Of a stretch of DNA of 43,605 bases, positions 1 to 32,200 are shown piece by piece. Numbering within the stretch: position 1 is the first letter of the stretch; each line of letters opens with the position of its first letter. A model generated the notes under the pieces. The model was not told the origin of the DNA. It worked only from the letters and a program-made list of their open reading frames with translations, and ran no database searches. The DNA is taken from contig PMLB01000123.1 in the NCBI GenBank assembly GCA_003158735.1, forward strand, positions 1 through 43,605. Direction: 5' to 3'. This stretch comes from Myxococcales bacterium. GTDB lineage: Bacteria; Myxococcota_A; Polyangia; Fen-1088. The position numbers were made by a program, and so were the translations under genes.

Positions 1-20
1 CTTCCAGGGTTCCCATGTCA
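1..20 (+). repeat. 3' end of an interspersed repeat (copy C, truncated by window edge)
   Basis: cttccagggttcccatgtca matches copy A ctttcagggttcccatatca at 18/20 positions; also similar to copy B right end. Confidence 0.65.
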
Positions 21-22
21 AA

Positions 23-781
23 ATGTTCCGCTCCATGTGGTCCAACCGTCCGGGCTTCCGAGCCCACACAATCCTAGCGCTCGTGTTGCTGGTCGCTGCG
101 TGCAAGAAAGGTGCGCCCCCGGCTCCACCATCCACGGCTCAGGCCGAGCTGCCGCCGCTCGACGTGAACAAGGATTCGGCGCTGCTCTTCACCCACGTTG
201 AGCCCAACGGGAATTTCGCCACGACCGACAAGGCCGATTCGGTGCCGGAGGTGGCCCGGCGTCTGGTGCGGGTCACTGACCCAGCCAAGGGCGTGGCCGA
301 GCGGCGGGATACGTCCAATGTCTACGTCGTCGACTTGCGCGAATTGCTGGCCAACGGCAAGGCGCGGGCATGGGCCATATCGCGCGAGGCATTCGAGACC
401 GGCGCGCTGGCGCAGCTGCCGCCCGGTGATTCCAGTGCGCTGGCAGGCCCGCATGGCCCGGCTTTGCCCGAGGAGCCCGAAGCAGCGGGCTCGGACGCTG
501 GGGCGGGGCATGCGCTCGCAGGAGGCCCGCCGGTCGTGATCCTATACGGGACGCCGTGGTGCGGGGCCTGCAAGGCGGCGCGCCAGTACCTGATTTCCAA
601 GCACATTCCCTTTGCCTACAAGGACATCGAAAACGATGCGTCCGCTGCGCGCGAGCTGCAACAGAAGGCCTCGCGGCTGGGAATTCCAGCGGATCGGGTG
701 CCCATCCTCGATGTGCGCGGTCGTCTATTGGTGGGATTCGACCGGACGAGACTGGAGGCACTGCTGGGCGATGCAACCTAG
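23..781 (+). CDS. Lipoprotein with C-terminal glutaredoxin-like domain
   Basis: Signal/lipobox-like N-terminus (LALVLLVAAC), then VVILYGTPWCGACKAARQYLISKHIPFAYKDIE...VPILDVRGRLLVGFD typical of glutaredoxin folds (CxxC = CGAC). Confidence 0.85.
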   Translation: MFRSMWSNRPGFRAHTILALVLLVAACKKGAPPAPPSTAQAELPPLDVNKDSALLFTHVEPNGNFATTDKADSVPEVARRLVRVTDPAKGVAERRDTSNVYVVDLRELLANGKARAWAISREAFETGALAQLPPGDSSALAGPHGPALPEEPEAAGSDAGAGHALAGGPPVVILYGTPWCGACKAARQYLISKHIPFAYKDIENDASAARELQQKASRLGIPADRVPILDVRGRLLVGFDRTRLEALLGDAT

Positions 782-969
782 TCGCGTGGGGAGCCCGCCG
801 GCCTTCGGGACGGACAGCCCACCCTGCCCACCCCGCGCGCTTCGCGCGCGCCCTCGCCGGCGGCGCACCATCGTGGGAGGGCATGGCGAGGCCGAGCGAA
901 GCGAGCGGGGAGGCGGTGGCGGGTGAGGAGCCGAAGGGCGGAGCGAACCCTTTCAGGGTTCCCATATCA
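777..969 (+). repeat. Interspersed hairpin-forming repeat, copy A (intergenic, glutaredoxin-tyrA)
   Basis: Shares agtcgcgtggggagcccgccggcc (24 nt), gcgaggccgagcgaagcgagcgggg (25 nt), gccgaagggc and gggttcccatatca (14 nt) with copy B at 3402-3531, in the same order and orientation. Confidence 0.9.
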
Positions 970-1018
970 GCTGTCCGGCGCCGACTTCGGCCGCATAACC
1001 TGGTAGTGTTCCTGCTGC

Positions 1019-1894
1019 GTGGATTCCAAAGTTCCATTTTCTCGCCTGGCGCTCATCGGTGTCGGCTACATCGGAGGCTCAGCCGCCCTGGCCGCGCGGC
1101 GGGCTGGACTGGTCGGCTCGGTGACGGGCTTCGATGTGGACGCCAAAGCTGGTCCGTTGGCCTTGGCGCGCGCTGTGGTCGACGAGATGGCGGACAGCGC
1201 GGAATCCGCGGTGGCCGGAGCGTCGTTGGTCTTGCTGGCGGCGCCGGTGTTGAGCTTGGCGGGTCTGCTTCGTCGCGCGGCCGGGAAGCTGGCGCCCACG
1301 GCGACGATCATCGACGTCGGCAGCGTCAAGCAGTCGGTCGTACTCGAAGCCGATGCGGCGTTGCCGGGTGGACGTTTCGTGGGTTGCCACCCCATGGCCG
1401 GGGCTGAGCATGTGGGCGTGGGCGCCGCCGACCCAGACATCTTCGCGGGACGGGTGTGTTTCCTGTGCCCGAGTGCGCGCACTAGCGACGAGGCGGCCAG
1501 GGCCGCGGCCCTGTTCTGGCAAGGCCTTGGCTGCCAGGTGGTGTCTATCGATCCATCGCTGCACGACCGCCTGATGGCGGCGGTCAGCCACTTGCCCCAT
1601 GTGGCTGCCTTCGCGTTGGCGGCCAGCCTGACCGATGCCCTCCCGCTCATCGAGTCGAATGTTTTGCCGGGCCGGCCCACCACCAGCTTGCGCGACACGA
1701 TTCGCGTCGCCGCGTCCAGCCCGCAGGTTTGGCGGGACATTCTCCTCGCGAACCGGGAGCATCTGCTACCACTGGTGAGTGAGTTGGAGCAACGATTGCG
1801 CACCATCGGCGCGGCCATGGCAACCGGCGACGCAGCGGCGCTCGAGGCGGCGCTGGCGCTGGGACAGGCGTGCCGCCTGCGGCTGGTGAAGTGA
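1019..1894 (+). CDS. tyrA: Prephenate dehydrogenase family protein
   Basis: GTG start; N-terminal NAD-binding GVGYIGGSAALAARRAG, VGSVKQSV, FVGCHPMAGAEHVGVGAADPDIFAGR motifs; adjacent to aroA region. Confidence 0.88.
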   Translation: MDSKVPFSRLALIGVGYIGGSAALAARRAGLVGSVTGFDVDAKAGPLALARAVVDEMADSAESAVAGASLVLLAAPVLSLAGLLRRAAGKLAPTATIIDVGSVKQSVVLEADAALPGGRFVGCHPMAGAEHVGVGAADPDIFAGRVCFLCPSARTSDEAARAAALFWQGLGCQVVSIDPSLHDRLMAAVSHLPHVAAFALAASLTDALPLIESNVLPGRPTTSLRDTIRVAASSPQVWRDILLANREHLLPLVSELEQRLRTIGAAMATGDAAALEAALALGQACRLRLVK

Positions 1895-2943
1895 AGGTGT
1901 CCCTTATTGGCTTCAGAGTTCTGCCGGGCGTGCTGGGCGCTTGGCTGGTCGTGTCCTGCGCGGCCCCAGTTTCGCCAGGCCCGGCAGCCGTTGCGGAGGC
2001 CACGCGCACCGCTGCCGACGACGACGATCTTTGGGCGTTGGTGCCCGCCGAGGCCGAGCTCTTGGTCTGGGCCGACATGACCCAACTGCGCGAGTCGGCT
2101 TGGACCAAGTCGGCCCTGTACAAGACGGCTCCCGAGGAGCGCGCCGCGCGGGCGCGATCGCGTGGTTTTGACGAAGTGGACGATGTGGATCGTCTGCTCT
2201 ACGCGACGGTTCCTCTCTTGCGTGAGGGTGCGAGCATCTTGATCGCGCAGGGCCGCATGGATGGCGGGCGCCTCAGCGAGGCCTTCCGGCGCCAGCATTC
2301 CCAGACGACGACGTCCGACTACCGGGGCGCGAGGGTGCTGGCCGAAGGTGAGGAAGCCATAGCCTTTCTCACCAAGCGAACTGTTGTGTCCGGCCCGCTG
2401 GTGGTGGTTCGTGCCACCATCGACTGCGGGCTCGGCTTGGCCCGCAGTGCGGCCAGCGAGTCGTGGTTGTCCACGCTTCAGGCCGTGCTTCGCGAGGGCA
2501 GGGGCCCATCGCGGCGCCTGCCAGCGTTGGCCGCGGCGGTGCGGCTCAGCCCGACCATGCGCGCACAGCTCGAAGCTGAGATGGGTGAGGGTGGGACGCT
2601 GGAACAAGTTGGGGCGCGCCTTGACCTTGGCCGTGACCTGGACGTGGCCATAGCCGGGCTGGTGTCCACGCACCAGCAAGCCATGGACCTAGTTGCCCGT
2701 CTGTCGACAGTGCTGCGTGAACAGCGCAACCGGCCGCTGATTTTGATACTGGGCTTGCAGTCTATCGTGGACGGCGTCCGCCTTGGCGCTCGGGAGAACC
2801 GGGTGGAAGGAAGGCTGAGCATTCCCGAGGATCAGCGTGCGGAGATCGTCGATCGCATGGCGCTGGTGGCGGAGCAGATCGCGCGCCGTCGTGCCAGCAC
2901 GGCAGGCTCGGGCGAGAATTCCTCCGAAGGAACCGTCCGATGA
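1891..2943 (+). CDS. Hypothetical secreted/lipoprotein
   Basis: ORF 1870-2943; likely GTG start near 1891 gives a signal peptide with Cys (GAWLVVSCAAP). Ends overlapping aroA ATG (ATGA). Confidence 0.65.
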   Translation: MKVSLIGFRVLPGVLGAWLVVSCAAPVSPGPAAVAEATRTAADDDDLWALVPAEAELLVWADMTQLRESAWTKSALYKTAPEERAARARSRGFDEVDDVDRLLYATVPLLREGASILIAQGRMDGGRLSEAFRRQHSQTTTSDYRGARVLAEGEEAIAFLTKRTVVSGPLVVVRATIDCGLGLARSAASESWLSTLQAVLREGRGPSRRLPALAAAVRLSPTMRAQLEAEMGEGGTLEQVGARLDLGRDLDVAIAGLVSTHQQAMDLVARLSTVLREQRNRPLILILGLQSIVDGVRLGARENRVEGRLSIPEDQRAEIVDRMALVAEQIARRRASTAGSGENSSEGTVR

Positions 2944-4424
2944 AGCAGCAGAATCAGAGTTCGGAACCCCTGCTGCGCATCAGCCGCAGCCCCGCGCTTC
3001 GGGGCAGGGTGAGTGTGCCTGGGGACAAGTCCATCTCGCATCGGGCGCTGCTGTTCGGCGCGCTGGCCGACGGCGCGGTCGAGATCAGTGGTCTGGGTCT
3101 GGGCGGTGACAACGCCAGCACCATGGCAGCCTTGCGTGCGCTGGCCGTACCCATCCAGCAGGCAGGCACAGAAGTGCGCGTGGAGGGTGTTGGCCTGGCG
3201 GGGCTGCACCAGGCGGCTTGCGCTTTGGATTGCGGGAATTCGGGCACCACCATGCGTCTCTTCTGTGGGCTTTTGGCGGGCCGGCCGTTCGCGTCCACCC
3301 TGACCGGCGACGCGTCGCTGTCTCGCCGACCAATGGCCCGGGTGGCGACGCCCTTGCGACGCATGGGTGCGGTAATTGAGGGCCGGCAAGAAACTACCCG
3401 GCCCAGTCGCGTGGGGAGCCCGCCGGCCCTGCCGGCGGCGTACCATCGCGCGAGGCCGAGCGAAGCGAGCGGGGCGGGGTGGCAGGTGGGGGGCCGAAGG
3501 GCATGGGAGCCCTCTGAGGGTTCCCATATCAACGATCTGTTTCCGCCCCTCACGGTACGCGGCGGAGCGTTGCAGGGAATCGAGTACCAGCTTCCGGTGG
3601 CGAGCGCGCAGATCAAGAGCGCCCTGATTCTGGCTGGTCTGCAGGCACGCGGCCGGACCGTGATCAGCGAGCCGGGCCTGTCGCGCGATCACAGCGAGCG
3701 AATGTTGCGGTTTCTCGGCGCGCCAGTGAGCGTTGAACCGGAGCAGCGGCGCGTGGTGGTGGATCCCACGGGATGGAACGGCCGTCTGCGCGCAGGCACG
3801 GTGAGCGTGCCCGGCGATCTGTCTTCGGCGGCGTTTCTGCTGGTCGCTGCGCTAATTGTGCAGAATAGCGACGTGACGGTCGAGAACGTTGGCCTCAACC
3901 CCACCCGGACCGGGGTGCTCGATGCCTTGATCGCCATGGGGGCCAATCTGGAAATCACGGTCACCGGCCAGGCCATGGGCGAGCCAGTCGGCAGCGCGCG
4001 CGCGCGGTGGAGCGACCGGCGGCTGCGCGGCACCACGGTGGCAGGGGAGCTGGCGCTGCGTTCTATCGACGAGATTCCGGCGCTGGCCGTGGCCGCAGCG
4101 CTGGCCGATGGCACCACCGATTTCGGTGACCTTCGGGAACTGCGCGTGAAGGAATCGGATCGCATCGCCTGCATCGCGCGCGAGTTGCAGCGAGCCGGCG
4201 TGACGGTGCGCGAGGCCCCAGACGGCTTTTCGGTGACGGGCACAGGGGGACAGCTCTGTCATGGTGGCCGCGTGCAGCCGGATGGCGATCACCGCATTGC
4301 CATGGCGGGTGCCATCTTGGGGCTGGTGGGTGCCGACGCAACCGAGGTGCCAAGCCAGGACATCGCGACTTCGTTCCCGGGTTTCGCCCAGCTCCTGCAG
4401 GTGCTTGGAGCGTCCGTGGGTTAG
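2940..4424 (+). CDS. aroA: 3-phosphoshikimate 1-carboxyvinyltransferase (EPSP synthase) containing an in-frame repeat insertion
   Basis: GDKSISHRALLFGALADG, LDCGNSGTTMRLFCGLLAG, LTGDASLSRRPMARV, LPVASAQIKSALILAGLQ, GDLSSAAFLLVAALI, DGDHRIAMAGAI. ~47 extra residues lie between IEGR and PPLTVRGG. Confidence 0.97.
   Translation: MKQQNQSSEPLLRISRSPALRGRVSVPGDKSISHRALLFGALADGAVEISGLGLGGDNASTMAALRALAVPIQQAGTEVRVEGVGLAGLHQAACALDCGNSGTTMRLFCGLLAGRPFASTLTGDASLSRRPMARVATPLRRMGAVIEGRQETTRPSRVGSPPALPAAYHRARPSEASGAGWQVGGRRAWEPSEGSHINDLFPPLTVRGGALQGIEYQLPVASAQIKSALILAGLQARGRTVISEPGLSRDHSERMLRFLGAPVSVEPEQRRVVVDPTGWNGRLRAGTVSVPGDLSSAAFLLVAALIVQNSDVTVENVGLNPTRTGVLDALIAMGANLEITVTGQAMGEPVGSARARWSDRRLRGTTVAGELALRSIDEIPALAVAAALADGTTDFGDLRELRVKESDRIACIARELQRAGVTVREAPDGFSVTGTGGQLCHGGRVQPDGDHRIAMAGAILGLVGADATEVPSQDIATSFPGFAQLLQVLGASVG
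3402..3531 (+). repeat. Interspersed hairpin-forming repeat, copy B, inside aroA and in frame
   Basis: Same ordered conserved blocks as copy A; translated as PSRVGSPPALPAAYHRARPSEASGAGWQVGGRRAWEPSEGSHI within AroA. Confidence 0.92.
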
Positions 4425-5482
4425 AATCTTCCCCCCAGCGCGACCTTGAGGGCCGGCTTCGCCACATCGGGCACCGGCGCGATCAGCACGTAGCAACTGA
4501 GCACGGCCACGCTGGCACCGATCCCGATCAGGGCACCGGCCACGGCTGGCCACTTCTTGCTGTCGTGGCCGACATTGGCCAACAAGGCGCCTCCTGCGAC
4601 GACGGTGGCGAAACCCAGGGCGATGCCTCCCGCGGCCAGAGGACGGCGCCAGGACGATGGCGGCGGGGGTGGTGGCGGGGGCGGGCGTTGCTGAGTCAGC
4701 CAAAGCTCGACCGGATTCTTGATGGCGTCGCCAAGTTGGATGATCTTCTGGCGGGCCTCGTCGACCGTGCACACGGGGCAGAATCGGGCCTGGGTGTCGA
4801 TGGCCACGCCCGCGGGAGTGGTACCTTCGGCGCTGAAAAGTCGCGCGGTCATGTCGTAGCTGTTTCCGGTGACCGCGACGGTGACGCGCACCACGTGGCT
4901 GACGTCCAGCATCTGGCCCAGGCGCTTTACGCACATCGAACCTTCGCATTGCTGCAGTTCAGGGAAGATGTCGATGTAGCGCGCGACATCGACGGAATCG
5001 AGCACGTAGATGGGCGCCGTGCGGGTGAGGCCCACCACGAACCCATCTTGCAGGCGCATGGCCAGGGCACGCGAAGCGTCCTCTCCGGTCACCTGGAATT
5101 CTGTGACGGCGACACGCGCGGTGGTCGGATACTGACCGTCCGGGTGGACGGAAACCGGGGGCAGAAGCATGCCGGCGGCCACACCGTTGGCAGGCGGCGG
5201 GGCGACGGGGATGACCGGCGGCGCGGCAGTCTTCTTGGCGGGCGGTGGGGCAGGCTGTGCGGGTGCGGTCGGGGCCGGATCCGGCGGCTTGGCAGCGGGA
5301 ACGGCAGATTCCGCCGCGCGGTCACCGTTCGACGCGACCCCGCCGGCCGAGCTCACGCGCGTGGCGGCCGGCTTCTTGCCGTTCGACGCGGGCAGGCCCT
5401 CGGAGGCAATCTTGGTCTGTCCCAGGGCAGTCTGAGCGCTCAGCAAGACGATCAACAAGGGAAGCAGGGTGGGCCTAGTCAC
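4421..5482 (-). CDS. Hypothetical secreted protein with Pro/Ala-rich linker and C-terminal transmembrane segments
   Basis: Signal peptide MTRPTLLPLLIVLLSAQTALGQ; conserved-looking globular part RVAVTEFQVTGEDASRALAMRLQDGF...; C-terminal hydrophobic helices; 4-bp tail overlap with aroA. Confidence 0.7.
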   Translation of the reverse strand: MTRPTLLPLLIVLLSAQTALGQTKIASEGLPASNGKKPAATRVSSAGGVASNGDRAAESAVPAAKPPDPAPTAPAQPAPPPAKKTAAPPVIPVAPPPANGVAAGMLLPPVSVHPDGQYPTTARVAVTEFQVTGEDASRALAMRLQDGFVVGLTRTAPIYVLDSVDVARYIDIFPELQQCEGSMCVKRLGQMLDVSHVVRVTVAVTGNSYDMTARLFSAEGTTPAGVAIDTQARFCPVCTVDEARQKIIQLGDAIKNPVELWLTQQRPPPPPPPPPSSWRRPLAAGGIALGFATVVAGGALLANVGHDSKKWPAVAGALIGIGASVAVLSCYVLIAPVPDVAKPALKVALGGRF

Positions 5483-5549
5483 GGGAAGGGCTCAGTTTGT
5501 CACATTGGGCACGCGTCGTCAGCGGCTACGGTCGGCACGGTTATGTCAG

Positions 5550-6242
5550 TCACTCTTTTTCTTCCAGCTTCTTCTTCATGCGCTTGAGAAGCGCATCAAA
5601 GGATTCCTTGTTGATGATCTTGCCGAACTCGGCCCGGTAGTTCTCCACCATGCTCTGCTCGTCGGTGATCACGTCGTAGACCAGCCACTTGCCTTCTTTG
5701 TCGAGGAGCTTGTATTCAATCGCCACGTCCACCTTCTTCCCCCGCGTTATGCTGTGCAGGGTGGCGGTCACGTCGGCCTCCTTGCCGTCGATGGTTTCCT
5801 TGTCAAAAGCTAGGTCGTAGTTCGGCGATCCGTGGACCTGCTTGATGTAGCTGCGTTCGATCAAATCCCGCAGCGTGGTCACGAATTCCGTCCGCTGCTT
5901 GGCCGAAAGGCCATCCCAATGTCGCGCGAGCGACCGTCGCCCCAGCTCCTCGAAGTCGAGAAAACCGGCCACGATCTTGCGCATCTCGCTCCGCTTGGCA
6001 TCGGCCTCGGGCGACCAGGACGGCGCGTGGCGTGCAAACAACTTCTTTAGTGCGCCGTCGGACCTTTTCAGCTCAGCCATGGGGCTCGACGGGGCCTTGC
6101 TGTTGCCGGCCGTCGCTTGGCTGGGCGCGGGACCTCCGTGCTTGGGTTCGGTGGCACCCGGCGTGGCTGTCGGCACGAGCAGGGCAAGCACGACCATGGC
6201 GTTGCGCGCGTTGGAGAGGACCGGCAAGACAAGGTATTTCAT
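5550..6242 (-). CDS. MlaC/Ttg2D family phospholipid-binding protein
   Basis: FDFEELGRRSLARHWDGLSAKQRTEFVTTLRDLIERSYIKQV and VAIEYKLLDKEGKWLVYDVITDEQSMVENYRAEFGKII are typical of the MlaC/toluene-tolerance family. Confidence 0.88.
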   Translation of the reverse strand: MKYLVLPVLSNARNAMVVLALLVPTATPGATEPKHGGPAPSQATAGNSKAPSSPMAELKRSDGALKKLFARHAPSWSPEADAKRSEMRKIVAGFLDFEELGRRSLARHWDGLSAKQRTEFVTTLRDLIERSYIKQVHGSPNYDLAFDKETIDGKEADVTATLHSITRGKKVDVAIEYKLLDKEGKWLVYDVITDEQSMVENYRAEFGKIINKESFDALLKRMKKKLEEKE

Positions 6243-17100: not shown

Positions 17101-17244
17101 GACTGGTTTTATAGCAGATACCAGGCTCGGCGCGGCGGCTGCCGCCACACCCAGGCTGCTCACGCTCTCGCTTGCGCCCAGGCCGGCCGCGACCAGCCCG
17201 CTGCTCACGCCAGCCTTTGTGCAGGGGTGCTACCATGCCTGGCC

Positions 17245-19707
17245 GTGCTCGAATCTCGTCGCCGTCCCGGCTGGATCCTCTTCCCCCTCTTCGTGCTGTC
17301 GGGGGCCAGCGGTCTGTGCTTCGAGATCCTCTGGGCGCGACAGCTGCAGGTGGTGCTCGGCGCCACTAGCAAGGCGATCGCCGGCGTGGTCAGCCTGTTT
17401 ATGTTGGGCTTGGCGCTGGGCGGAACCTTGGGCGCCCGGTGGGCCATCCGCGTGCGTCGGCCGGCCCTGGCCTATGGTGCTGCGGAACTCGGCATCGGCT
17501 TGTGCGCGGCGGTGGTCACAGTTGTGCTGCCACACCTGGAAAGTGTGGACAGCGTGGGCCTGCGCTACCTCGTGGCAGCCCTGTGTCTGGTACTTCCCAG
17601 CACGCTTATGGGCTTGACGTTTCCCTTGGTGATGCAGGCTTGCGATCCCGGGGGCCGTGGCGGAGGTGGCGGACTGTACGCCGCCAACACGGCGGGCGCC
17701 ACCCTGGGCTGCATGCTGGCGGGCTTCTTGGGCATCGGTGGCCTGGGCGTCCGCGCCACCGCCGGGATCGCGGTTGCGGGCAATCTGCTGTGCGGCCTCA
17801 CCGCGCTGTTGCTTTTTCGCAGGGTGGTCGCAGCGGCCTACCACGCTCCCATCGACGGCACCGCGCCCGAGCCGTCAGCCGAGACCGACCCGCGCGTGCG
17901 GCCGCTGGTGTTCGCGGCTGCGGGCATGGCCGGCGCCAGCGCGCTGGGCGCTGAGATCCTCTGGACGCGCGTCCTCATACCCTGCGTGAACTCATCCAGC
18001 TACGCCTTCTCGGCCATCCTGGCCACCTACCTGGCCGGTCTGGCTTTGGGTGCGACCTGGGTGGCCCGTCGCTGCGTCCGGCTGTCGTCGTCCCAGATGG
18101 CGCGCTTGTTCGGCCTTTTGCAACTTGGGCTGGGGGTGCTGGTGTGGGCCACGCCCCGCTTGCTACGCGTGGCCGAGACCCTCGTGCCGGGCTACGTGGG
18201 CATCCGTCAGATCACGTCGCTGGCGGGCGGGTTGGCCATGATGGCGGGTGTGTTCGCCAAAGCCGCTATCGTGGTGCTGGTCCCCACTTTTCTGATGGGG
18301 GCGAGTCTGCCCCTGTGCATCGCCCAGATGGCGCGCACTGGCCTGGCGGGTGGAGCAGCAGCGGGACGGGTCGTGGCGCTGAACACGGTGGGTGGCGTGG
18401 CTGGCTCCGTGCTGGCCGGGTTTGCGCTGCTGCCTGGCCTGGGCAGCGGCAAGGCATTGCTCGTCGTTGGTCTTGGCAATTTCGTGGCAGCGCTGCTGCT
18501 GCTGGGGCCGAAGACCCCGTGTGGCAGTCGGCGTCTGGCCACGCTCGCGCTCACCGCGGTGGTCGTGCTCTTGCTCCTCGTCATCGGGCATCCTGACGCT
18601 CCGCCGTTCCTGGGGCGCCTGGCTCAGGGAGCGCAGCCGTTGCTGGTCGACGAGGGTCCGCAGGATACGACCGCAGTCATCGAACAAGGTCCGCCCGGAC
18701 GGCGCAATCGCACCATTTTGTCCAACGGCGTGTCGTATGCCGGCGACGCGCCGGCCGCTCAGCGCTACATGGGCCTTCTGGGGCATCTTCCCGTGTTGCT
18801 TTCGGACGACGCCGCTCAAAGTCTGGTGATCTGCGTGGGCACGGGTACCACGGCGGCCAACCTGGCCACCCACGACGAGGTTCGCCAGATCGACTTGGTC
18901 GACATCAGCCCGGCTGTGCACAAGACGCTGCCGCTCTTCGCGCATGTCAACCAATCGGTGTGGAACGATCCGCGCGTCCGAATGCATGAGGCCGACGGCC
19001 GCCAGTTCGTGACCCGGGCGCCGCAAAACTACGGTGTGATCACCCTGGAACCGCCGCCTCCGCGCACCGCTGGCGCTGCCAGCCTGTACACCATCGGCTT
19101 CTATGAACGGGCACGCGCCTCGCTGCGTCCGGGTGGCGTGATCGCGCAGTGGCTGCCCCTGCACGGCCTGACCGAGGCCGAGATCCTCATGCTGGCCCGC
19201 ACCTTCCTGACCGTGTTTCCCGAAGCGGCGTTGTTTCTGCTCAATCCCGACGAGGCGGCCCTGCTCGGTTCGCCCAGCCCGCTGGTGTTCGACGTCGATC
19301 GCGTGCGCCGCCGTCTGGAAAGCCCGGCAGTTCGGGCCGCGCTTGCTCGCATTGGGTTTGCCACCGACGACACGAGCCATCTCGCGGCCGATCTGCTGGC
19401 GCTGGCGCCGGTCAGTGGGCCGGCCTTGCGCGAGCTGGTTGGCGACGGTCCGGTGGTCACCGATGACCGTCCTCTCATTGAGCAGTTCGGTTTCATCCTG
19501 GCAGCGGACGCCTCCTGGCGGCTTGACCCCGATGGGCGGCGCGGACTGCTGCGCCGGCTGGCCGACCGGCCAGCACCGGCCCTGCCTAGCCGGGGCGCGG
19601 CCCTGCCTGATCTGACAGCCGCGCGTGAGACCCTGCGCTCGCGCATCCTCGCCTGGTTGGCCCAGGTCGAGCGAACCCCGGCCGCAGGGGGGCGCCGTTT
19701 GTACTGA
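17245..19707 (+). CDS. Fused MFS-like membrane / spermidine synthase-like protein
   Basis: SGASGLCFEILWARQLQVVLGATSKAIAGVVSLFMLGLALGG with TM helices, then VICVGTGTTAANLATHDEVRQIDLVDISPAV...LEPPPP methyltransferase-fold region. GTG at 17245; upstream of this the ORF is antisense to hisS. Confidence 0.83.
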   Translation: MLESRRRPGWILFPLFVLSGASGLCFEILWARQLQVVLGATSKAIAGVVSLFMLGLALGGTLGARWAIRVRRPALAYGAAELGIGLCAAVVTVVLPHLESVDSVGLRYLVAALCLVLPSTLMGLTFPLVMQACDPGGRGGGGGLYAANTAGATLGCMLAGFLGIGGLGVRATAGIAVAGNLLCGLTALLLFRRVVAAAYHAPIDGTAPEPSAETDPRVRPLVFAAAGMAGASALGAEILWTRVLIPCVNSSSYAFSAILATYLAGLALGATWVARRCVRLSSSQMARLFGLLQLGLGVLVWATPRLLRVAETLVPGYVGIRQITSLAGGLAMMAGVFAKAAIVVLVPTFLMGASLPLCIAQMARTGLAGGAAAGRVVALNTVGGVAGSVLAGFALLPGLGSGKALLVVGLGNFVAALLLLGPKTPCGSRRLATLALTAVVVLLLLVIGHPDAPPFLGRLAQGAQPLLVDEGPQDTTAVIEQGPPGRRNRTILSNGVSYAGDAPAAQRYMGLLGHLPVLLSDDAAQSLVICVGTGTTAANLATHDEVRQIDLVDISPAVHKTLPLFAHVNQSVWNDPRVRMHEADGRQFVTRAPQNYGVITLEPPPPRTAGAASLYTIGFYERARASLRPGGVIAQWLPLHGLTEAEILMLARTFLTVFPEAALFLLNPDEAALLGSPSPLVFDVDRVRRRLESPAVRAALARIGFATDDTSHLAADLLALAPVSGPALRELVGDGPVVTDDRPLIEQFGFILAADASWRLDPDGRRGLLRRLADRPAPALPSRGAALPDLTAARETLRSRILAWLAQVERTPAAGGRRLY

Positions 19708-19831
19708 TTCTTGGAAGATTCGTGGCTGGTTCAATCGGCGGTTCCGCAACCGAAAGCCGGATCTGGGACCGGCCGTCGGATACGGTTCCGACTACCGGCT
19801 CCGGCTGCCGGCGGAAACACAGATCCCCAGC

Positions 19832-20581
19832 CTACTCCGTGCGCACGACTGCGGCGCCTAGACCTTCCACCAGGCGCGCGGTGGCGCGTTCCACCAGAGC
19901 GGCGTCGCGGCCGTCGACGGTGATCTTCACCTTGTATTCGGCGACGCCGAGTCGAGGATAGGAGCCGACCGCAACTCCGGGAAACTCGGCCACCACCGCG
20001 TCGAGGGTTGCCGCGATGACAGCCTCGCTCTCGCGCGAGTAGACCGCGCGACTGAGGATGGGACCGGTGCGGAACAGCTCGCGCACCATCGCGAACTTGT
20101 ACCGAAATATCTCGGGCACCCCGGGCAGGATGTAGACGTTTCTCACCGCCACCACTGGCCAGTGTGAGCGGTCCCCGTCCGGGCCGTAGAGCAGTCGCGC
20201 ACCGTCAGGGATGTCAGCCATGCGCAGATCGCGTTCGTGCAGGCTGGGCCCCATGGCCGAACGAATTTTGGCCTCCAGTTCTAGATTGCGTGCCGGGCGC
20301 AGCCCAAAGGCCTTGGCCATCGCCGCCATGGTCACGTCGTCGTGGGTGGGGCCGACTCCGCCCGAGGTGAAGACATGGTTGTAGCGGCTGGACATGCCCC
20401 GCACAGCCTCGGCAATCTCGTCGATCTCGTCAGGGATGACGTCGATGCGGCGGACCGCCACCCCCAACTCGCGCAGCTCGCGCACAAGATAGCGGGCGTT
20501 CTCTTCCTCAACCTTGGCGGAGAGGATTTCTTCACCGATGACCAGGATTCCCGCGGTGGGGCCAAGGAAGGGTATGCTCAT
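19832..20581 (-). CDS. CinA N-terminal/MoaB-like molybdopterin-binding domain protein
   Basis: AGILVIGEEILSAKVEEENARYLVRELRELGVAVRRIDVIPD...VFTSGGVGPTHDDVTMAAMAKAFG; ATG at 20581 preferred over the longer ORF. Confidence 0.88.
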   Translation of the reverse strand: MSIPFLGPTAGILVIGEEILSAKVEEENARYLVRELRELGVAVRRIDVIPDEIDEIAEAVRGMSSRYNHVFTSGGVGPTHDDVTMAAMAKAFGLRPARNLELEAKIRSAMGPSLHERDLRMADIPDGARLLYGPDGDRSHWPVVAVRNVYILPGVPEIFRYKFAMVRELFRTGPILSRAVYSRESEAVIAATLDAVVAEFPGVAVGSYPRLGVAEYKVKITVDGRDAALVERATARLVEGLGAAVVRTE

Positions 20582-20622
20582 GTCGACTATGGCCAGGATA
20601 CATCCTCGGGTGGCATGTCCAC

Positions 20623-21051
20623 CTAGCGAAGTGGATTGACCCAACGAAGCTGGGGAAAGCGCGCGAAGTCGGCGTCGTTCGAGTGGAGTTCGGCTTGGTG
20701 CTCGATCGCCAACGCAGCCAGTTGCGCATCGGTGGTCAGGTTGCCGGCCGCGCCCAGCCCGCGCAGAAGGCGGAAGGCAATCTCCAGGTGGCGTGGGCCA
20801 GGAACCAGGAAGCTGACCTGGCTGCGGGATAGCCATCTCTCCACCTGGGCCACGGCGTTCTCGACGGTCATTGGATGATCGAAGATGCGCGGATTGGTCA
20901 CCACCCTGATGAAACCATAGAGCGCGGGGGCTGCAAGGCCCACGGGCGTGGGGTCGTTCATCAAGTGCTCCCACCAGCGCCGCGCCTTCGCGTGCTCGGC
21001 GAGACCGCTCATGTGAGCGTAGACCAGCAGGTTGACGTCAGGGATGGTCAC
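20623..21051 (-). CDS. PIN-domain toxin, VapC-like
   Basis: PDVNLLVYAHMSG...GNLTTDAQLAALAIEHQAELHSNDADFARFP: PIN acidic residues; overlaps upstream RHH-like gene by ATGA. Confidence 0.88.
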   Translation of the reverse strand: MTIPDVNLLVYAHMSGLAEHAKARRWWEHLMNDPTPVGLAAPALYGFIRVVTNPRIFDHPMTVENAVAQVERWLSRSQVSFLVPGPRHLEIAFRLLRGLGAAGNLTTDAQLAALAIEHQAELHSNDADFARFPQLRWVNPLR

Positions 21052-21317
21052 GATCGCTTCCGGCTCGCAGTCGCAAGGAGAGTTGCATCTTCCATCTCGT
21101 CGGCGTACTTGTTGAGCGCGGTCCTGTCCAGCCCCGGCAACAACGCCGCGTGATGTGCTGTGACCCGGTAGACAGCTTGCGCCTCGCCCGCGCCATGGGG
21201 AGAGAGGCCGCGGCGAATGGCATCGTTCACGACTTGTTTGAACGGTTTGCGTGCCCGATGCACTTCCCCCTCCACTAGGTGGAAGACATCGGCGTCAAGC
21301 GTGAGGGTTGTGCGCAT
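21048..21317 (-). CDS. VapB-like antitoxin
   Basis: RTTLTLDADVFHLVEGEVHRARKPFKQVVNDAIRRGL RHH-type N-terminus, immediately upstream of the PIN gene. Confidence 0.82.
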   Translation of the reverse strand: MRTTLTLDADVFHLVEGEVHRARKPFKQVVNDAIRRGLSPHGAGEAQAVYRVTAHHAALLPGLDRTALNKYADEMEDATLLATASRKRS

Positions 21318-21321
21318 GAAG

Positions 21322-21333
21322 GCATCATGATGC
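21322..21333. promoter_or_regulatory. Candidate VapBC operator palindrome
   Basis: Perfect 12-bp palindrome GCATCATGATGC beginning 5 nt upstream of the vapB start codon. Confidence 0.45.
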
Positions 21334-21471
21334 TATATGAACAAGTCGTCAAGATGCTACCAGAAGCCGGTTTGGCTATCGGGGAGCGACACCGCGGGAA
21401 GGTCGGTCTCTGTTTGCGTCATCGGTTTGACTACCCAAAAAATTGCGCCATTGGGCAGGCTCCCCATACTG

Positions 21472-23981: not shown

Positions 23982-24040
23982 GGGAGGGGCGGGCGACTTA
24001 CCTGCGTGCGAATCGATCGCGAAGCCGGGGCATGGACTGA

Positions 24041-24484
24041 TCAGGTCGACGGTTGTAGGCAGATGTACGGTTCGCCGGCTTGGAAGACGCCGACGTTGAA
24101 ACAAGTCCATCCCACCGGACAGATCTGGGGCGTCGTGTCGCAGCCGGGTGCCGTGCAGTAGCCGACCGGAACCCCGGGCTGTAGCGCGCAGTAGCTCACG
24201 GCCCCATTGCACTCGGTCTGACTGCTGCACGCGCTACCGAAATCCGCTGCGGTGCCGCTGGCCTCCGACGCGGAATCGAGATCGCCGCCTGCAGGCGCGG
24301 CGGCATCTGGGGCGGCTGCACCCGTGTCAGGCCCCGTGGTCGCTTCGGCGGCAGCGCCATCCGCGGGCAGAACCAGCTTCATGCAGTACCCCTTGTCGAA
24401 TTGTTGCCCCGCCGGACAGGGCGAGTCTTCCGTGCAGGACAGGGAAGTGGCCACCAACAGTACGACGCCCATGGTTCTCGTCAT
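24041..24484 (-). CDS. Cysteine-rich hypothetical lipoprotein
   Basis: Signal with LVATSLSC; CNGAVSYCALQPG..GYCTAPGCDTTPQICPVGWTCF Cys-rich tail. Confidence 0.65.
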   Translation of the reverse strand: MTRTMGVVLLVATSLSCTEDSPCPAGQQFDKGYCMKLVLPADGAAAEATTGPDTGAAAPDAAAPAGGDLDSASEASGTAADFGSACSSQTECNGAVSYCALQPGVPVGYCTAPGCDTTPQICPVGWTCFNVGVFQAGEPYICLQPST

Positions 24485-24511
24485 TGAATCACCTTTCCAG
24501 AAGTCCGCAGG

Positions 24512-25894
24512 TCAGAAAACGAACACCAACCGCGAGGCCAAACTGCGAATCGTCACGTTGCTGGGATTGGGTCCCTCGGTGTTGAAGAAATATGAGCTGG
24601 AGTACTGGGTCTTCAGCTGGGCCCAAGGCTTGAAATAGATGTTGAAGCCCAGGGAAGGCGTGCAAACGAAATCGTCGAGAAAATCCGGTGGGCTGACGTA
24701 CTGGATCTCGACGTAGACGTAGGGTTCGAAGCGACGGGCGAAGCGATGGGCCAGCAGCCCGTACCAGTAGTGGGCAAAGCGATTGGGGAGCACACTCCCC
24801 GGGGGCCCCAGGCCTGGTTCATTCTGGGCGCCTGCGTCGTACTTAACTCGATGAAGTAGCGCTTCGGTGCGGAGCCTCCAGCCACCCCAGTCCACCGACA
24901 GGTCGACACCCGCTGCCCATTCGTGATACGCCCACGCCCTGGTTTCCGTCACGCCGAAGCTGCCCGAGGAAAAGTCCAGTTGCTTGGTGTCGTCCGATGA
25001 AGTGCCCCAGTAGCCCGACATCCCCACGGTGAAGCGGGTCGCGCCGCTGTGGCGCAAGAACAGCCTTGCGCCAAGGGCCTTGTCATCGGTCAGGTCGACG
25101 TTCGTCATCGTCCGTCCATTACTCAGGTAGACGTGGTACCCGAGGTCCAGGGCGCCGAACACGAAACTACCGTACGCGTGAACGCCAACCAGACGCGCTG
25201 GGATAGCCTCTTCCACTTGAAAGGCTGGCAGCAGAAGCGAGATGAGCACAGGCGTGCCGTGATCGATGTTCCAGATCCCGTAGGGTGACGGGAAAAGTCC
25301 TGCTTGGATGGTGAGGGCTTGGCTATAGGACCACTCGCCCCAGGCCCGCTCGATCACGACACCGCCCCACGACACGTGCGCGCGGCCATTTGGATCGCTG
25401 GAATCGTAGACGCTCGTGTTCACGCGCTGATAGTTGGGGGTGAACGACTCGGACCCGTTTGGGTACAGCGTGAACCGCGTTTCGATGAGGGTGCGCCATC
25501 CCGGCCCGGGGCGCGTGTCGAGGTATAGGTTGACATTGCCCAGGACAAACGTGGTGGCGCGGGTCGGGTAGACGCCATTGAGCGGATCACCGCTATCCAG
25601 GAAGAGCCGCTGAAGTCCGACGTCCATGAAGCCATACAGATCGATTGCGCGCGCCGGGGTCGCGTGGCCAGCCTCCGCTTCCGCGGACTCCACTTCCTTC
25701 ATACGCTGTTCGATGGCATCCAATCGGGTGTCCAACGGAGGACCGGCGGGAGCCTCAACCTGGTCCACCTCCTTGGCTGATGGGTTGACGGCTGTTTGGT
25801 TCGTCACAGACGGAACGGGGGCAGGTTCGCCTTGTGCGCGCGCCAGGCCCGGCAAGAACGACAGCAACCCAATCAGGAATCGATGGTTTTTCAC
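24512..25894 (-). CDS. Outer-membrane beta-barrel/porin-like protein
   Basis: Signal peptide, short coiled coil (LDTRLDAIEQRMKEVESAEAE), LYGFMDVGLQRLF, alternating aromatic strands and terminal ...RLVFVF. Confidence 0.8.
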   Translation of the reverse strand: MKNHRFLIGLLSFLPGLARAQGEPAPVPSVTNQTAVNPSAKEVDQVEAPAGPPLDTRLDAIEQRMKEVESAEAEAGHATPARAIDLYGFMDVGLQRLFLDSGDPLNGVYPTRATTFVLGNVNLYLDTRPGPGWRTLIETRFTLYPNGSESFTPNYQRVNTSVYDSSDPNGRAHVSWGGVVIERAWGEWSYSQALTIQAGLFPSPYGIWNIDHGTPVLISLLLPAFQVEEAIPARLVGVHAYGSFVFGALDLGYHVYLSNGRTMTNVDLTDDKALGARLFLRHSGATRFTVGMSGYWGTSSDDTKQLDFSSGSFGVTETRAWAYHEWAAGVDLSVDWGGWRLRTEALLHRVKYDAGAQNEPGLGPPGSVLPNRFAHYWYGLLAHRFARRFEPYVYVEIQYVSPPDFLDDFVCTPSLGFNIYFKPWAQLKTQYSSSYFFNTEGPNPSNVTIRSLASRLVFVF

Positions 25895-26397
25895 GGCATC
25901 ACCACCTGGCTGCGACGGATGCGAGCCACGACCTTCACGCGTGGTTTTAGTTTCGAGTCGGGGATGTATCCGATTGCGCCGGGCGTGCGTGACACCAGAT
26001 CCACAATCGCCGCCGCCGAGGACAGTTGCCGCGGCGGCGGACTGTCGCCGCGAATCATCTGATCGATCCAGAACTGGGCCACGTCGTCGGGGTCCATGCC
26101 CAGAACGACGCGGTCGAAGACGACGCGTTCGGGGACGCTGGGCGCAAGGTTGATGGCAGTCACCGGTGTTCTGTCAGGCCAATCGCGCAAGACGCGGGTA
26201 AACACCGCCCGCAAATCGTTCGCCGAAAGCGCGCGTACGGGCGACGAGGGGTGGACGATAACCACAAGCTCTGCCGGTTCTTCGGCCCCGGACGGATGTG
26301 ACAGAAGGCAGCCGAGCATGGCCATGATGCCGAAGACGCCGCTCCACGTCCGCCTCGGCAAGTGCAGTCTCGCTCCACGCCGTCGCTTCGATCTCAA
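25891..26397 (-). CDS. Orphan phosphate-type (PBP-like) periplasmic binding protein
   Basis: ELVVIVHPSSPVRALSANDLRAVFTRVLRDWPDRTPVTAINL...FWIDQM...VDLVSRTPGAIGYIPDS; ATGA overlap with barrel gene. Confidence 0.82.
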   Translation of the reverse strand: MRSKRRRGARLHLPRRTWSGVFGIMAMLGCLLSHPSGAEEPAELVVIVHPSSPVRALSANDLRAVFTRVLRDWPDRTPVTAINLAPSVPERVVFDRVVLGMDPDDVAQFWIDQMIRGDSPPPRQLSSAAAIVDLVSRTPGAIGYIPDSKLKPRVKVVARIRRSQVVMP

Positions 26398-26497
26398 GGA
26401 AGTACCCCAAGACGCCTATCGGCGGCGGCTCGGCCAATCTTGAGCCAAGGCAGCGTCAAGCTGGTGCGCGGTCCTGCCGATTGTCCCCCAGGGCGCG

Positions 26498-28945
26498 ATG
26501 CTACTGCGTGGAAAACTGGGCCTGCTTGTGGGTGTTCCCGTCACCGGGGCGTTGCTGCTGGCCACGCTGGTACTGGCCGAGGCGTGGCGGGACGCCGAAC
26601 GTGCGACTGCGCTCGGTTCGGTGGAACACCTACAGAGGGTCGCTGAGCGATCCACAACCCTGGTGCGTGCGCTGCAGGCCGAGCGCACGAGTGCGGTCCT
26701 TACTGCCGCCAGCCGTGAGCGAGTTGCGCAGGGATCGTTGCTGCCCGGGCGGATTGCCAGCGTGGACAGCGCCCTTGCCGCGTTCCGCGAATCCGTCGAA
26801 AAGCTGGACCGGAAGCTCCTGACATCCGGCACCGACCGAGCCGTCAAGATGACCGTGACCCAACTTGCAATCCTACCGGAAGTGCGAGGCGACATAGGTT
26901 CTGGTGGCGCCCGAGGTTTCGATCGACTGGGCACGGGGTATGGCACCATGGTGGAGGCACTGATTGCGCTCGTTACCAGTTTGCGTGAAGTCAGTTCGGA
27001 TAAGGAGATCGCGGCTGATGTGGCCACCTTGGTCTCGCTTCTGCGCGTCGATGAACAGGAGGCTCGCCTCGACGCTTTGTTGGGACTGGTGTTCTCGGTG
27101 GGCGAGTTTCCGCCCGGGTCTTTTCGAAAACTGGTTGCCATCACGACCGAGGCCAAGGTGCACAGCGCAACCCTTCAGGTCGATGCCGGCGAGGTGACGC
27201 GCGCCCGCTTCAACGCGTCCCTGACGTCGGGCCCAGGCCAGGAGGTGTCCGCCATCGTGGCCGCCGCCCTCGCTTCGGTACAGGACATACCGAAAGTCGA
27301 TCCGAATCATTGGTATGTCCAGCACGGCCAACAGATAACGACTCTCCGGCAACTGGAGGACCGAATGCTCGCGCGAATCGCAAGCCGCGCCACCCAGAAG
27401 AAGGCGGAACGGCAGCGCATGGTATTGCTCGTGCTGATCGTGGCTGGGCTGGCGGTTCCAGGATCCCTGGCGCTGGGCTGGAAGGTGGCCAGAAGTGTGC
27501 ACCTGTCGCTGGCGTCACTGCATGCCGTTGCCAATCGCGTACGCAGGGAAGGTGACTTCAGCGCGCGGGTGGTCAGTGCCAGCGCGGACGAGGTGGGTCA
27601 ACTGGGCGACGCATGGAACGAGATGATGGCCGGGATTCAAGCCCGCGACCGCGAACTGGCGGACCATCGTAGGCATCTGGAAGAGACCGTCTCGCAGCGA
27701 ACTGCCGATCTGGCGTCGGAACGTCAGAGACTGGCGCTGATTCTTACGTCGGTCAATGAGGGCATCGTGGGGTTGGACCCAAACGGGTGTGTGACCTTTC
27801 TGAACCCGGCTGCGGAGCGACTGTTGGGTCTGACCGCTTCGGATACCGTGGGACGTCCCTTTCATGAGGTGGTTCAACATGAGATGGGAGAGGCCAAATG
27901 CGTCAGGGAAAGCTGTCCGATCCTACGCACGCTGAACGACGGTTCTCTTGGCAGCCTGACGGGCGACCGGCTCGCGCGAAGCAACGGTGTCCCCTTGGTC
28001 ATTGAAGGATCAAGCACACCCATCGTCGTCGAGGGACGCACTGCCGGTGCCGTCCTGAGCCTGCGGGATGTGACCGCCCAGAAGAATCTGGAATTCCAGT
28101 TGCAGCAAGCACGCAAGCTGGAGGCGATTGGCCAGTTGGCCGCTGGAATTGCGCACGAGATAAACACCCCGATGCAGTTCATCGGCGACAACGTACGCTT
28201 TTTGCAGGAGGCCGTCGGTGACATGCAGGTCGTTCTGGAGGGGTATCGTAGCGCGGTCCAAGGAGACTCGGGGCTTGCGTCCGAGGTGCGGCAATCACTT
28301 GAACGGCTGGAGCAGGACAAGGACGTTGGCTACCTGATCGAGAACGTGCCGCGATCTTGCGAGAGCGCCCTGATGGGCGTCGCCCGGGTCAGCAAGATCG
28401 TCTACGCGATGAAGGAGTTTTCTCATTCAGGAGGCGAAGAAAAGGAACTGGCGGATCTGAATCGTGCGACCGAGAGTACCGCCACGGTAGCCACCAGCGT
28501 ATGGAAGCACGTAGCGGAACTGGAACTCCACCTGGAAGCCGATCTGCCTACACCTCCCGTACACCTTGGTGAAATCAATCAAGTCATACTCAACCTCATC
28601 ATCAATGCCGCCCATGCCATTGCAGACGTCGTCAAGGATGGCGGCGCCAAGGGACGCATTACCGTGTCGACTGGGCACGACGACACGCATGTCGAGATTC
28701 GCGTGGCGGACACCGGGACTGGGATCCCGGAGTCCGCACGGGAACGGATCTTCACGCCATTCTTCACAACCAAGGAGATCGGCAAGGGAACCGGACAAGG
28801 ACTGTCGCTGGCGCGGTCGGTGGTAGTCGATCGCCACCACGGCACCATTGCATTTGAGACGGAGACGGGACGCGGTACGACCTTCATCGTACGCCTACCG
28901 CTCCAGGATACTGATGCCCCAGCGGCCCAGACGCCCCCAAAATGA
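26498..28945 (+). CDS. Sensor histidine kinase: NIT-like sensor, HAMP, PAS, HisKA, HATPase
   Basis: NIT-like VEHLQRVAERSTTLVRALQAERTSAVLTA; HAMP-like DEVGQLGDAWNEMMAGI; PAS EGIVGLDPNGCVTFLNPAAERLLG; GQLAAGIAHEINTPMQFI; NLIINAAHAI; VADTGTGIP; FTPFFTTKEIGKGTGQGLSL. Confidence 0.93.
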   Translation: MLLRGKLGLLVGVPVTGALLLATLVLAEAWRDAERATALGSVEHLQRVAERSTTLVRALQAERTSAVLTAASRERVAQGSLLPGRIASVDSALAAFRESVEKLDRKLLTSGTDRAVKMTVTQLAILPEVRGDIGSGGARGFDRLGTGYGTMVEALIALVTSLREVSSDKEIAADVATLVSLLRVDEQEARLDALLGLVFSVGEFPPGSFRKLVAITTEAKVHSATLQVDAGEVTRARFNASLTSGPGQEVSAIVAAALASVQDIPKVDPNHWYVQHGQQITTLRQLEDRMLARIASRATQKKAERQRMVLLVLIVAGLAVPGSLALGWKVARSVHLSLASLHAVANRVRREGDFSARVVSASADEVGQLGDAWNEMMAGIQARDRELADHRRHLEETVSQRTADLASERQRLALILTSVNEGIVGLDPNGCVTFLNPAAERLLGLTASDTVGRPFHEVVQHEMGEAKCVRESCPILRTLNDGSLGSLTGDRLARSNGVPLVIEGSSTPIVVEGRTAGAVLSLRDVTAQKNLEFQLQQARKLEAIGQLAAGIAHEINTPMQFIGDNVRFLQEAVGDMQVVLEGYRSAVQGDSGLASEVRQSLERLEQDKDVGYLIENVPRSCESALMGVARVSKIVYAMKEFSHSGGEEKELADLNRATESTATVATSVWKHVAELELHLEADLPTPPVHLGEINQVILNLIINAAHAIADVVKDGGAKGRITVSTGHDDTHVEIRVADTGTGIPESARERIFTPFFTTKEIGKGTGQGLSLARSVVVDRHHGTIAFETETGRGTTFIVRLPLQDTDAPAAQTPPK

Positions 28946-29002
28946 CCGACAGGGCCGCGGAGATCCACGTTCAGACAGGTGAGGAGTTCGGCTCCGCGGA
29001 TG

Positions 29003-29146
29003 CTAGGGCAATGTGATGCGCCCAGGAGCGTCGCTGGCTCCGGTCTGAGTGTGACAGCTGTTGCAATCGCCGCTACTTGCGGTGGAAACCATCACGCGCT
29101 CGATGCCGGAGCCGTTCACGACCTTGGCCGGGCAGGAGTGTCCTCT
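29003..29146 (-). pseudogene. C-terminal remnant of a CxxCH (c-type heme motif) protein
   Basis: Reverse-strand reading RGHSCPAKVVNGSGIERVMVSTASSGDCNSCHTQTGASDAPGRITLP* with an in-frame TGA immediately upstream; not in the ORF track because no start codon/too short. Confidence 0.6.
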
Positions 29147-29296
29147 TCATGACCATTTGATGAGAGCTTTCGGATCCGAATTACAAAGACAAGGCGGCGC
29201 GCGTGGCGGCCAGGTAGCGGAGGAGCGGGCTCAGCCGCCTGAACCTGCGATCAACGGACCGCCAGGTTGACGCCGTCCTGAGGTACACTCCGCCGC

Positions 29297-31666: not shown

Positions 31667-31764
31667 ACCCAACGTGAAGTGGGTGTCAGGGCGCCGCAAC
31701 ACCTACACTGGCGGCGGTTGCGCTTTAGCGCAGACTGAAAAGTGCCGCTGTACGCTGACGAGGC

Positions 31765-32193
31765 ATGATGAGTTCATCTTTCGTCAGGGTGCGACTAGGG
31801 TGGGCGCTGGCCATTCTGTCGCTGGCCATCGCGGGACCGGCCTGGGCCGACGACCCCAAGCAGGAGGCGAAGGCGCGCTACACCACCGGGCAGAGCCACT
31901 ACAACCTGAATGAGTTTCAGGAGGCTTTGCAGGATTTCAAGGAGGCCTACCGCCTCTTCCCTGATCCGGTCTTCCTGTTCAACGGCGACTTCAACTTCTG
32001 GTCAGGAGCCAGCAGACCCGAGCTGGCCAGCTCGGGCGATGTTTCGTGCCAGGACTGGAGTAGTTCGAGCGCCATGGCCCACGGCCTGTACGGCGACGCC
32101 AATCTGTCTGGCGGCCCCGACTGGTTCGTCGGCTCGGGGAACACCTTCACTTGTGACAAAAGCGACGTGCGTCTGCTTTGCGCGGAGCCCTAG
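31765..32193 (+). CDS. Chimeric secreted ORF: TPR N-terminus fused to DUF1554-like C-terminal tail
   Basis: Signal peptide, TPR KARYTTGQSHYNLNEFQEALQDFKEAYRLFPDPVFLFN, then abruptly GDFNFWSGASRPELASSGDVSCQDWSSSSA...CDKSDVRLLCAEP. Confidence 0.6.
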   Translation: MMSSSFVRVRLGWALAILSLAIAGPAWADDPKQEAKARYTTGQSHYNLNEFQEALQDFKEAYRLFPDPVFLFNGDFNFWSGASRPELASSGDVSCQDWSSSSAMAHGLYGDANLSGGPDWFVGSGNTFTCDKSDVRLLCAEP

Positions 32194-32200
32194 ACCTGCG

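Follow-up and report, generated by a model that had tools for sequence, protein, structure and literature searches.

The DNA analyzed here, referred to in the following as the window, is a stretch of 43,605 nt (contig PMLB01000123.1, assembly GCA_003158735.1) from a fragmented metagenome-assembled genome of an uncultured myxobacterial genus. The host genome is labeled G000 and its genus g1. Near the start of the window lies aroA, the gene for EPSP synthase, which contains one copy of a repeated element (copy B); a second copy (copy A) and the end of a third lie upstream. The features are as follows:

1–20, forward strand: 3′ end of a third element copy, the rest of which is lost at the contig start
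779–781, forward strand: TAG stop codon of the open reading frame (ORF) 23–781, made of a host T and the first two element bases, AG
780–969, forward strand: element copy A, 190 nt, beginning in the stop codon of ORF 23–781
2940–4424, forward strand: aroA (3-phosphoshikimate 1-carboxyvinyltransferase), 494 codons, profile TIGR01356
3405–3531, forward strand: element copy B inside aroA, 127 nt, AGTCGCGTGG...CCCATATCA, delimited by family members and empty sites
3503–3527, forward strand: 3′ hairpin of copy B, ATGGGAGCCCT-CTG-AGGGTTCCCAT, with an 11-bp stem predicted by folding of the strand and also present in the 82-nt unit described below

The aroA frame runs uninterrupted across copy B, and the product matches the NCBIfam profile TIGR01356 in two blocks with a score of 357.6 bits (cut-off 287). 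AroA is 494 residues long in the host and 452 in the closest congener, G007, to which it is 96% identical, corresponding to a net gain of 42 residues. At the DNA level, the net insertion is 126 nt (42 codons), against 127 nt for copy B itself. The protein junction reads ...GRQETTRP[SRVGSPPALPAAYHRARPSEASGAGWQVGGRRAWEPSEGSHIN]DLFPPL... in the host and ...GRQEAARPGDLFPPL... in G007, and VGSPPALPAAYHR is an example of a peptide within or across the insert. The original prediction had placed an interspersed repeat in frame inside aroA, at 3390–3533 and contributing about 47 residues. The open frame and the matches across the host genome bear out the insert itself, whereas its bounds contract to 3405–3531 and its contribution to 42 residues. 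A conserved loop at this position in related orthologs would have argued for a different origin, but the site was empty in four congeners: G007, G009, G010 and G012. In a fifth, G008, the element sits at the identical nucleotide, and the bases flanking the junction are common to G000 and G008. The flanks are syntenic with G007 along the whole locus.

Further copies, which the original prediction had left to be sought, are numerous in the host genome. Used as a DNA query, copy B found at least 64 matching pieces (best non-self E = 1.6e-43), and copy A found at least 53. The resemblance between aroA and the intergenic copy at 777–969, first noticed as shared blocks, was confirmed as three blocks of 27, 28 and 25 nt at 96, 96 and 88% identity, respectively, far beyond chance. 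With up to one mismatch allowed, the 3′-end motif AGGGTTCCCATATCA had 55 occurrences in the host genome, against none for its reversed control. By the same measure, each of the seven g1 genomes contained 35–94 occurrences, with 3–41 in genus g4 and a single one in g5, and none was found in genera g2, g3, g6 and g7; across genomes, the reversed control gave 0, with a single exception of 1.

To describe the element, 97 complete copies were assembled from G000, G007 and G008. The minimal unit is 82 nt long (AGTCGCGTGGGG…GGGTTCCCATATCA) and runs from an AGTC tag through hairpin 1, a short linker and hairpin 2 to an ATCA tail, the ends of the element being AGTCGCGTGGGGAGCC and GGGTTCCCATATCA. The tag is mostly AGTC, with TGTC, CGTC and CCTC as variants. 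Folded as DNA, the 82-nt unit reached z = −6 relative to shuffled sequences; copy B alone was unexceptional as either RNA or DNA, with z about −1. Longer copies, from 124 to ~300 nt, carry their extra sequence between the two ends, in the linker, and tandem copies recur at 81 nt. The length of an orthologous copy can vary between genomes by a multiple of three, as in pilQ (82 versus 148 nt) and at the copy A site (190 versus 250 nt). Long copies outside genes favor a length of 1 modulo 3 (21 of 36, p = 0.002 against 1/3, in a set of copies that share ancestry).

Besides aroA, in-frame copies are present in at least 14 conserved genes, considering copies from G000, G007 and G008, with the frames running through the element. 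By profile, the host genes encode MutS, LeuRS, LigA, DHPS, RdgB, GalM, a histidine kinase, RecC, thioredoxin reductase, PDH E1, PurL, a PilQ-type secretin, a T6SS FHA protein and an Rsm22-like protein; the gene names of filled loci are mutS, leuS, ligA, folP, rdgB, galM, recC, purL, trxB, aceE, pilQ and rsm22-like. The commonest sense reading of the element is SRVGSPPAxPAADHRGRxWEPSQGSHI, and the core of the MutS insert is VGSPPALPAADHR. Other frames are used in leuS and recC, and the opposite orientation in pilQ and folP. Apparent frame breaks in rdgB and ligA of G000 are assembly gaps (NN). A statistic comparing frames in genes and elsewhere was set aside as circular, because the in-gene copies were partly picked by their open frame; support independent of the choice of frame comes from the conservation of the host genes and from clean empty alleles in sister species. 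At L246:8247 and L252:15543 (reverse-strand coordinates), the element occupies the space between two oxidoreductase-subunit-like genes and lies ahead of a CheW-like gene (names by inspection); the gene downstream may take its start region from it.

The pattern of presence was obtained from a junction-protein search of seven congeners, DNA comparison and further loci. Sister species carry empty alleles for most filled genes, including mutS, leuS, recC, galM, purL, trxB and aceE. Like aroA, the genes mutS, galM, rdgB and recC are filled in G000 and G008 and empty in G007. The ligA gene is filled in G000, G007, G008 and G009 and empty in G010 and G011, and trxB is filled in G007 and empty in G000 and G011. 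In aceE (pyruvate dehydrogenase E1), which is filled in G007 and G009, a deleted element has left a 9-nt in-frame scar (ACCCATGTC) in G000 (L295), showing that losses occur. Among clean pairs of filled and empty alleles, the net gain was 81 nt (mutS, trxB and aceE), 126 nt (aroA), 135 nt (recC) or 138 nt (leuS, filled in G000 and G009), all multiples of three. No target duplication was visible in comparison with the empty alleles. The 1–3 bases adjoining the element usually differ between filled and empty alleles, and paired flanks resembled each other somewhat more than shuffled pairs did, a weak excess of short repeats (2 of 300 shuffles reached the observed mean).

In a tree of the 5-kb aroA region, G000 grouped with G007 (100) and G008 with G009 (96). 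Nevertheless, G000 and G008 share filled sites in five genes (aroA, mutS, galM, rdgB and recC), and both sisters are empty wherever both were seen; given the species grouping, this sharing is homoplastic. Other same-site sets link G000 with G009 (leuS) and G007 with G009 (aceE). Local recombination was rejected as an explanation for the aroA site shared by G000 and G008, as the identity profile contains no tract of raised identity. Similarity among the elements is uninformative on descent versus re-insertion, since the positive controls, the copy A site and pilQ in sister species, failed to cluster. One account, compatible with a mobile element, is that same-site sharing reflects highly site-specific re-insertion instead of one ancestral insertion followed by losses. 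Besides the homoplastic patterns, this would fit the G007 empty alleles, which look ancestral and not excised, and the loose target consensus that is visible. However, the aceE scar in G000 demonstrates that loss happens, and the shared element-flanking bases in G000 and G008 also weigh against it. We consider repeated insertion a tentative explanation whose chances fall somewhat short of even.

A different question is whether AroA still functions. The insertion could have given rise to a non-functional or impaired allele in a gene that is being lost, and an insert-bearing guanylate kinase of Rickettsia is described as having a changed substrate affinity (Abergel et al., as cited in PMC2229807). 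However, dN/dS was 0.12–0.23 on both sides of the insert, in comparisons with both G007 and G008, corresponding to purifying selection, and the invariant residues of AroA are retained. The search of the host genome gave a single aroA match and no second copy. An AlphaFold model of AroA, based on 24 homologues, had a mean pLDDT of 88.6 overall and matched solved EPSP synthases, with 3slh as the best PDB match. The insert residues, 155–196, had pLDDT values below 50 (~29 in the core) and were placed between strands 145–150 and 200–207. Such a structural model had been suggested as a check, and in it the insert is predicted to be disordered, between strands, and the fold kept. Given the selection, the retained residues and the confident predicted fold, an impaired aroA is improbable. 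The insert is probably a 42-residue disordered surface loop on an otherwise intact EPSP synthase fold, and a tolerated loop is the simplest reading of the model. From the open frame and the purifying selection on aroA, we infer that the insert is translated.

Alternatively, the element might be removed after transcription or translation, like a splicing element, leaving the mature protein insert-free. The element's strong structure and the many essential genes that tolerate it would suit this idea, but positions 1–6000 of the window gave no match in Rfam, to an intron or otherwise, and copies occur in both orientations and several frames. Moreover, the in-gene copies keep the frame, which RNA splicing would not require, and we regard such removal as very improbable. 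Slightly less credible again is an assembly artefact, that is, a repeat-driven false join in the metagenome bin. The genome is indeed fragmented and contigs often end in the element, as at window positions 1–20 and in both G008 contigs with aroA. However, the junction is identical in the independent G008 assembly, aroA and many other genes remain in frame, different genes are filled in each assembly, and synteny with G007 extends throughout the locus. Finally, an ordinary lineage-specific loop that is repeat-like by chance, although it would lie between two strands where EPSP synthase length varies, is refuted by the empty sites in the sister G007 and three other congeners together with the matches between insert DNA and dozens of unrelated loci.

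The placement of copies outside genes bears on how a mobile element would insert. Here, the frames of neighboring genes were set by a codon-usage score trained on the host genome, not by annotation. Where a gene reads into a copy, 33 of 57 copies begin exactly at the stop codon of that gene. Genes reading into the 5′ end (sense, n = 35) stop at the edge in 19 cases (17 as T|AG, one offset), read through in 14 and stop inside the element in 2. Those reading into the 3′ end (antisense, n = 22) stop at the edge in 14 cases, mostly with a TGA from the reversed ATCA tail. At the copy A site, G000 has ACC T|AG, G008 is empty (ACC TGA), and G007 is filled with a copy of 250 nt. Of 12 sites where a stop-edge copy could be compared with an empty allele, 11 (the copy A site and ten others) have the natural stop of the empty allele at that same T, with L217:3938 as the exception, and the target is thus best described as CT^AG-like. 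Comparison of the alleles shows that the element ends re-form a stop codon in either orientation, TAG in sense and TGA in antisense, through a chemistry that we infer, so that the upstream gene keeps its end point. GTAG REPs often provide the TAG stops of neighboring ORFs (PMC3733652), so the stop-codon effect has precedent. The placement at stop codons suggests how the element spreads without killing its host.

The original prediction had compared this hairpin element in a core gene to the Rickettsia palindromic elements (RPEs), and the comparison is supported by the empty sites in the orthologs and by the many further genomic copies. The likeness lies in its features: an interspersed palindrome found between genes and in frame in unrelated conserved genes. 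Nearly half of RPEs lie within genes, in frame (PMC10969869, PMC2229807), and translation and activity have been shown for one insert-bearing protein (PMC2229807, PMC10969869, PMC2996958). RPEs and the protein-coding palindromes of Wolbachia and Methanocaldococcus are likewise short, present in many copies, intergenic and in frame in unrelated conserved genes (PMC2229807, PMC10969869, PMC2996958). In contrast to these, the fen element resides in Myxococcota, free-living and GC-rich, and has two separate hairpins, an 81-nt frame-neutral unit and tandem arrays. It also uses several frames and both orientations, with empty alleles and stop-codon placement documented.

Other classes of small repeats resemble the element in part. 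Like it, CGTC REPs have an NGTC-type unpaired tag, a short unpaired tail, intragenic copies that include DNA repair genes, and no dedicated transposase (PMC3733652). However, they have one 8–9 bp stem beginning with AT, a CGTC tag and mostly a CCA tail (PMC3733652), whereas the fen element has two longer stems, predominantly AGTC, an ATCA tail and an expandable linker. GTAG REPs and REPINs with RAYT share the hairpin ends that often give the TAG stop of a neighbor (PMC3733652), but the fen element has no GTAG tag at the hairpin foot, and no copies of it flank the host's Y1 transposases, whose occurrence does not parallel that of the element. MITEs (ERIC, Correia/NEMIS, RUP) are also small and non-autonomous, and some fuse in frame to genes (PMC2229807); in the fen element, no extended terminal inverted repeat is established, and the ends share a short imperfect similarity (GTGGGGAGCCC / ATGGGAACCC). 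For a comparison with IS200/IS605-derived miniatures (PATE-like), an autonomous relative or a transposase with the element's ends was sought; the portion of the genomes fetched contained one implausible 5′/3′ pair and no credible pair around a gene.

A Y1/RAYT transposase was also considered as the mobilizer and rejected, as none of the three Y1 genes in the host has an element within 1.5 kb, and G009, G011 and G012 gave no Y1 domain match despite their many copies. The three host genes (L285, L286 and L287) are closely similar members of the Y1 family, ~318 codons long and unlinked to the element, and may serve another repeat.

No such family is described for Myxococcota in the literature searched, outside which most subscription journals lie, and the original prediction likewise knew of none for this lineage. 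We class the element as a new family of a known kind, in which the two-hairpin, frame-neutral, stop-codon-associated design is the new part. The best explanation, with a probability of about 0.88, is a non-autonomous palindromic mobile repeat (REP/MITE-like) of the fen myxobacteria clade, including its mode of insertion and the loops. Presence at the same nucleotide departs from the species tree, which counts against it, as do the negative search for an autonomous relative and the lack of an established target duplication. In the clean cases an insertion adds 81 nt (27 codons), the target being a loose Y^RG-type site that is clearest as CT^AG in stop codons, and longer copies have an expanded linker. 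Copies surviving in genes stay in frame and would lengthen the product by a loop of at least 27 residues, with selection removing frame-breaking copies and tolerating loops and linkers. A transposase acting in trans is assumed as the mobilizer. A stronger version, which we advance with some hesitation and would not quite bet on, is that the element is gene-safe: a frame-neutral unit of 81 nt, directed at CT^AG-like sites and above all at stops, that re-forms the stop either way, can be read in several frames and re-enters the same gene sites across species.

Most known protein-coding palindromes come from obligate intracellular Rickettsiales, whereas the phylum here is free-living and GC-rich. 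Since natural filled and empty alleles exist in many conserved genes, such as aroA, mutS, ligA and leuS, one can test directly what selfish peptides cost a working enzyme and what becomes of them. The enzymes encoded by aroA and folP are herbicide and drug targets, and their inserts could mislead annotation.

Elsewhere in the window, three segments, at 17118–19832, 20586–21430 and ~23986–32295 (2.7, 0.8 and ~8 kb), match the syntenic region of G007 barely or not at all; at the position of the first, G007 contains just one 82-nt element. The ORF at 38363–40207 contains a tandem 63-nt (21-codon) repeat at 39383–40075, detected as nine overlapping 189-nt matches that are 64–73% alike, and the same repeat is present in G007.
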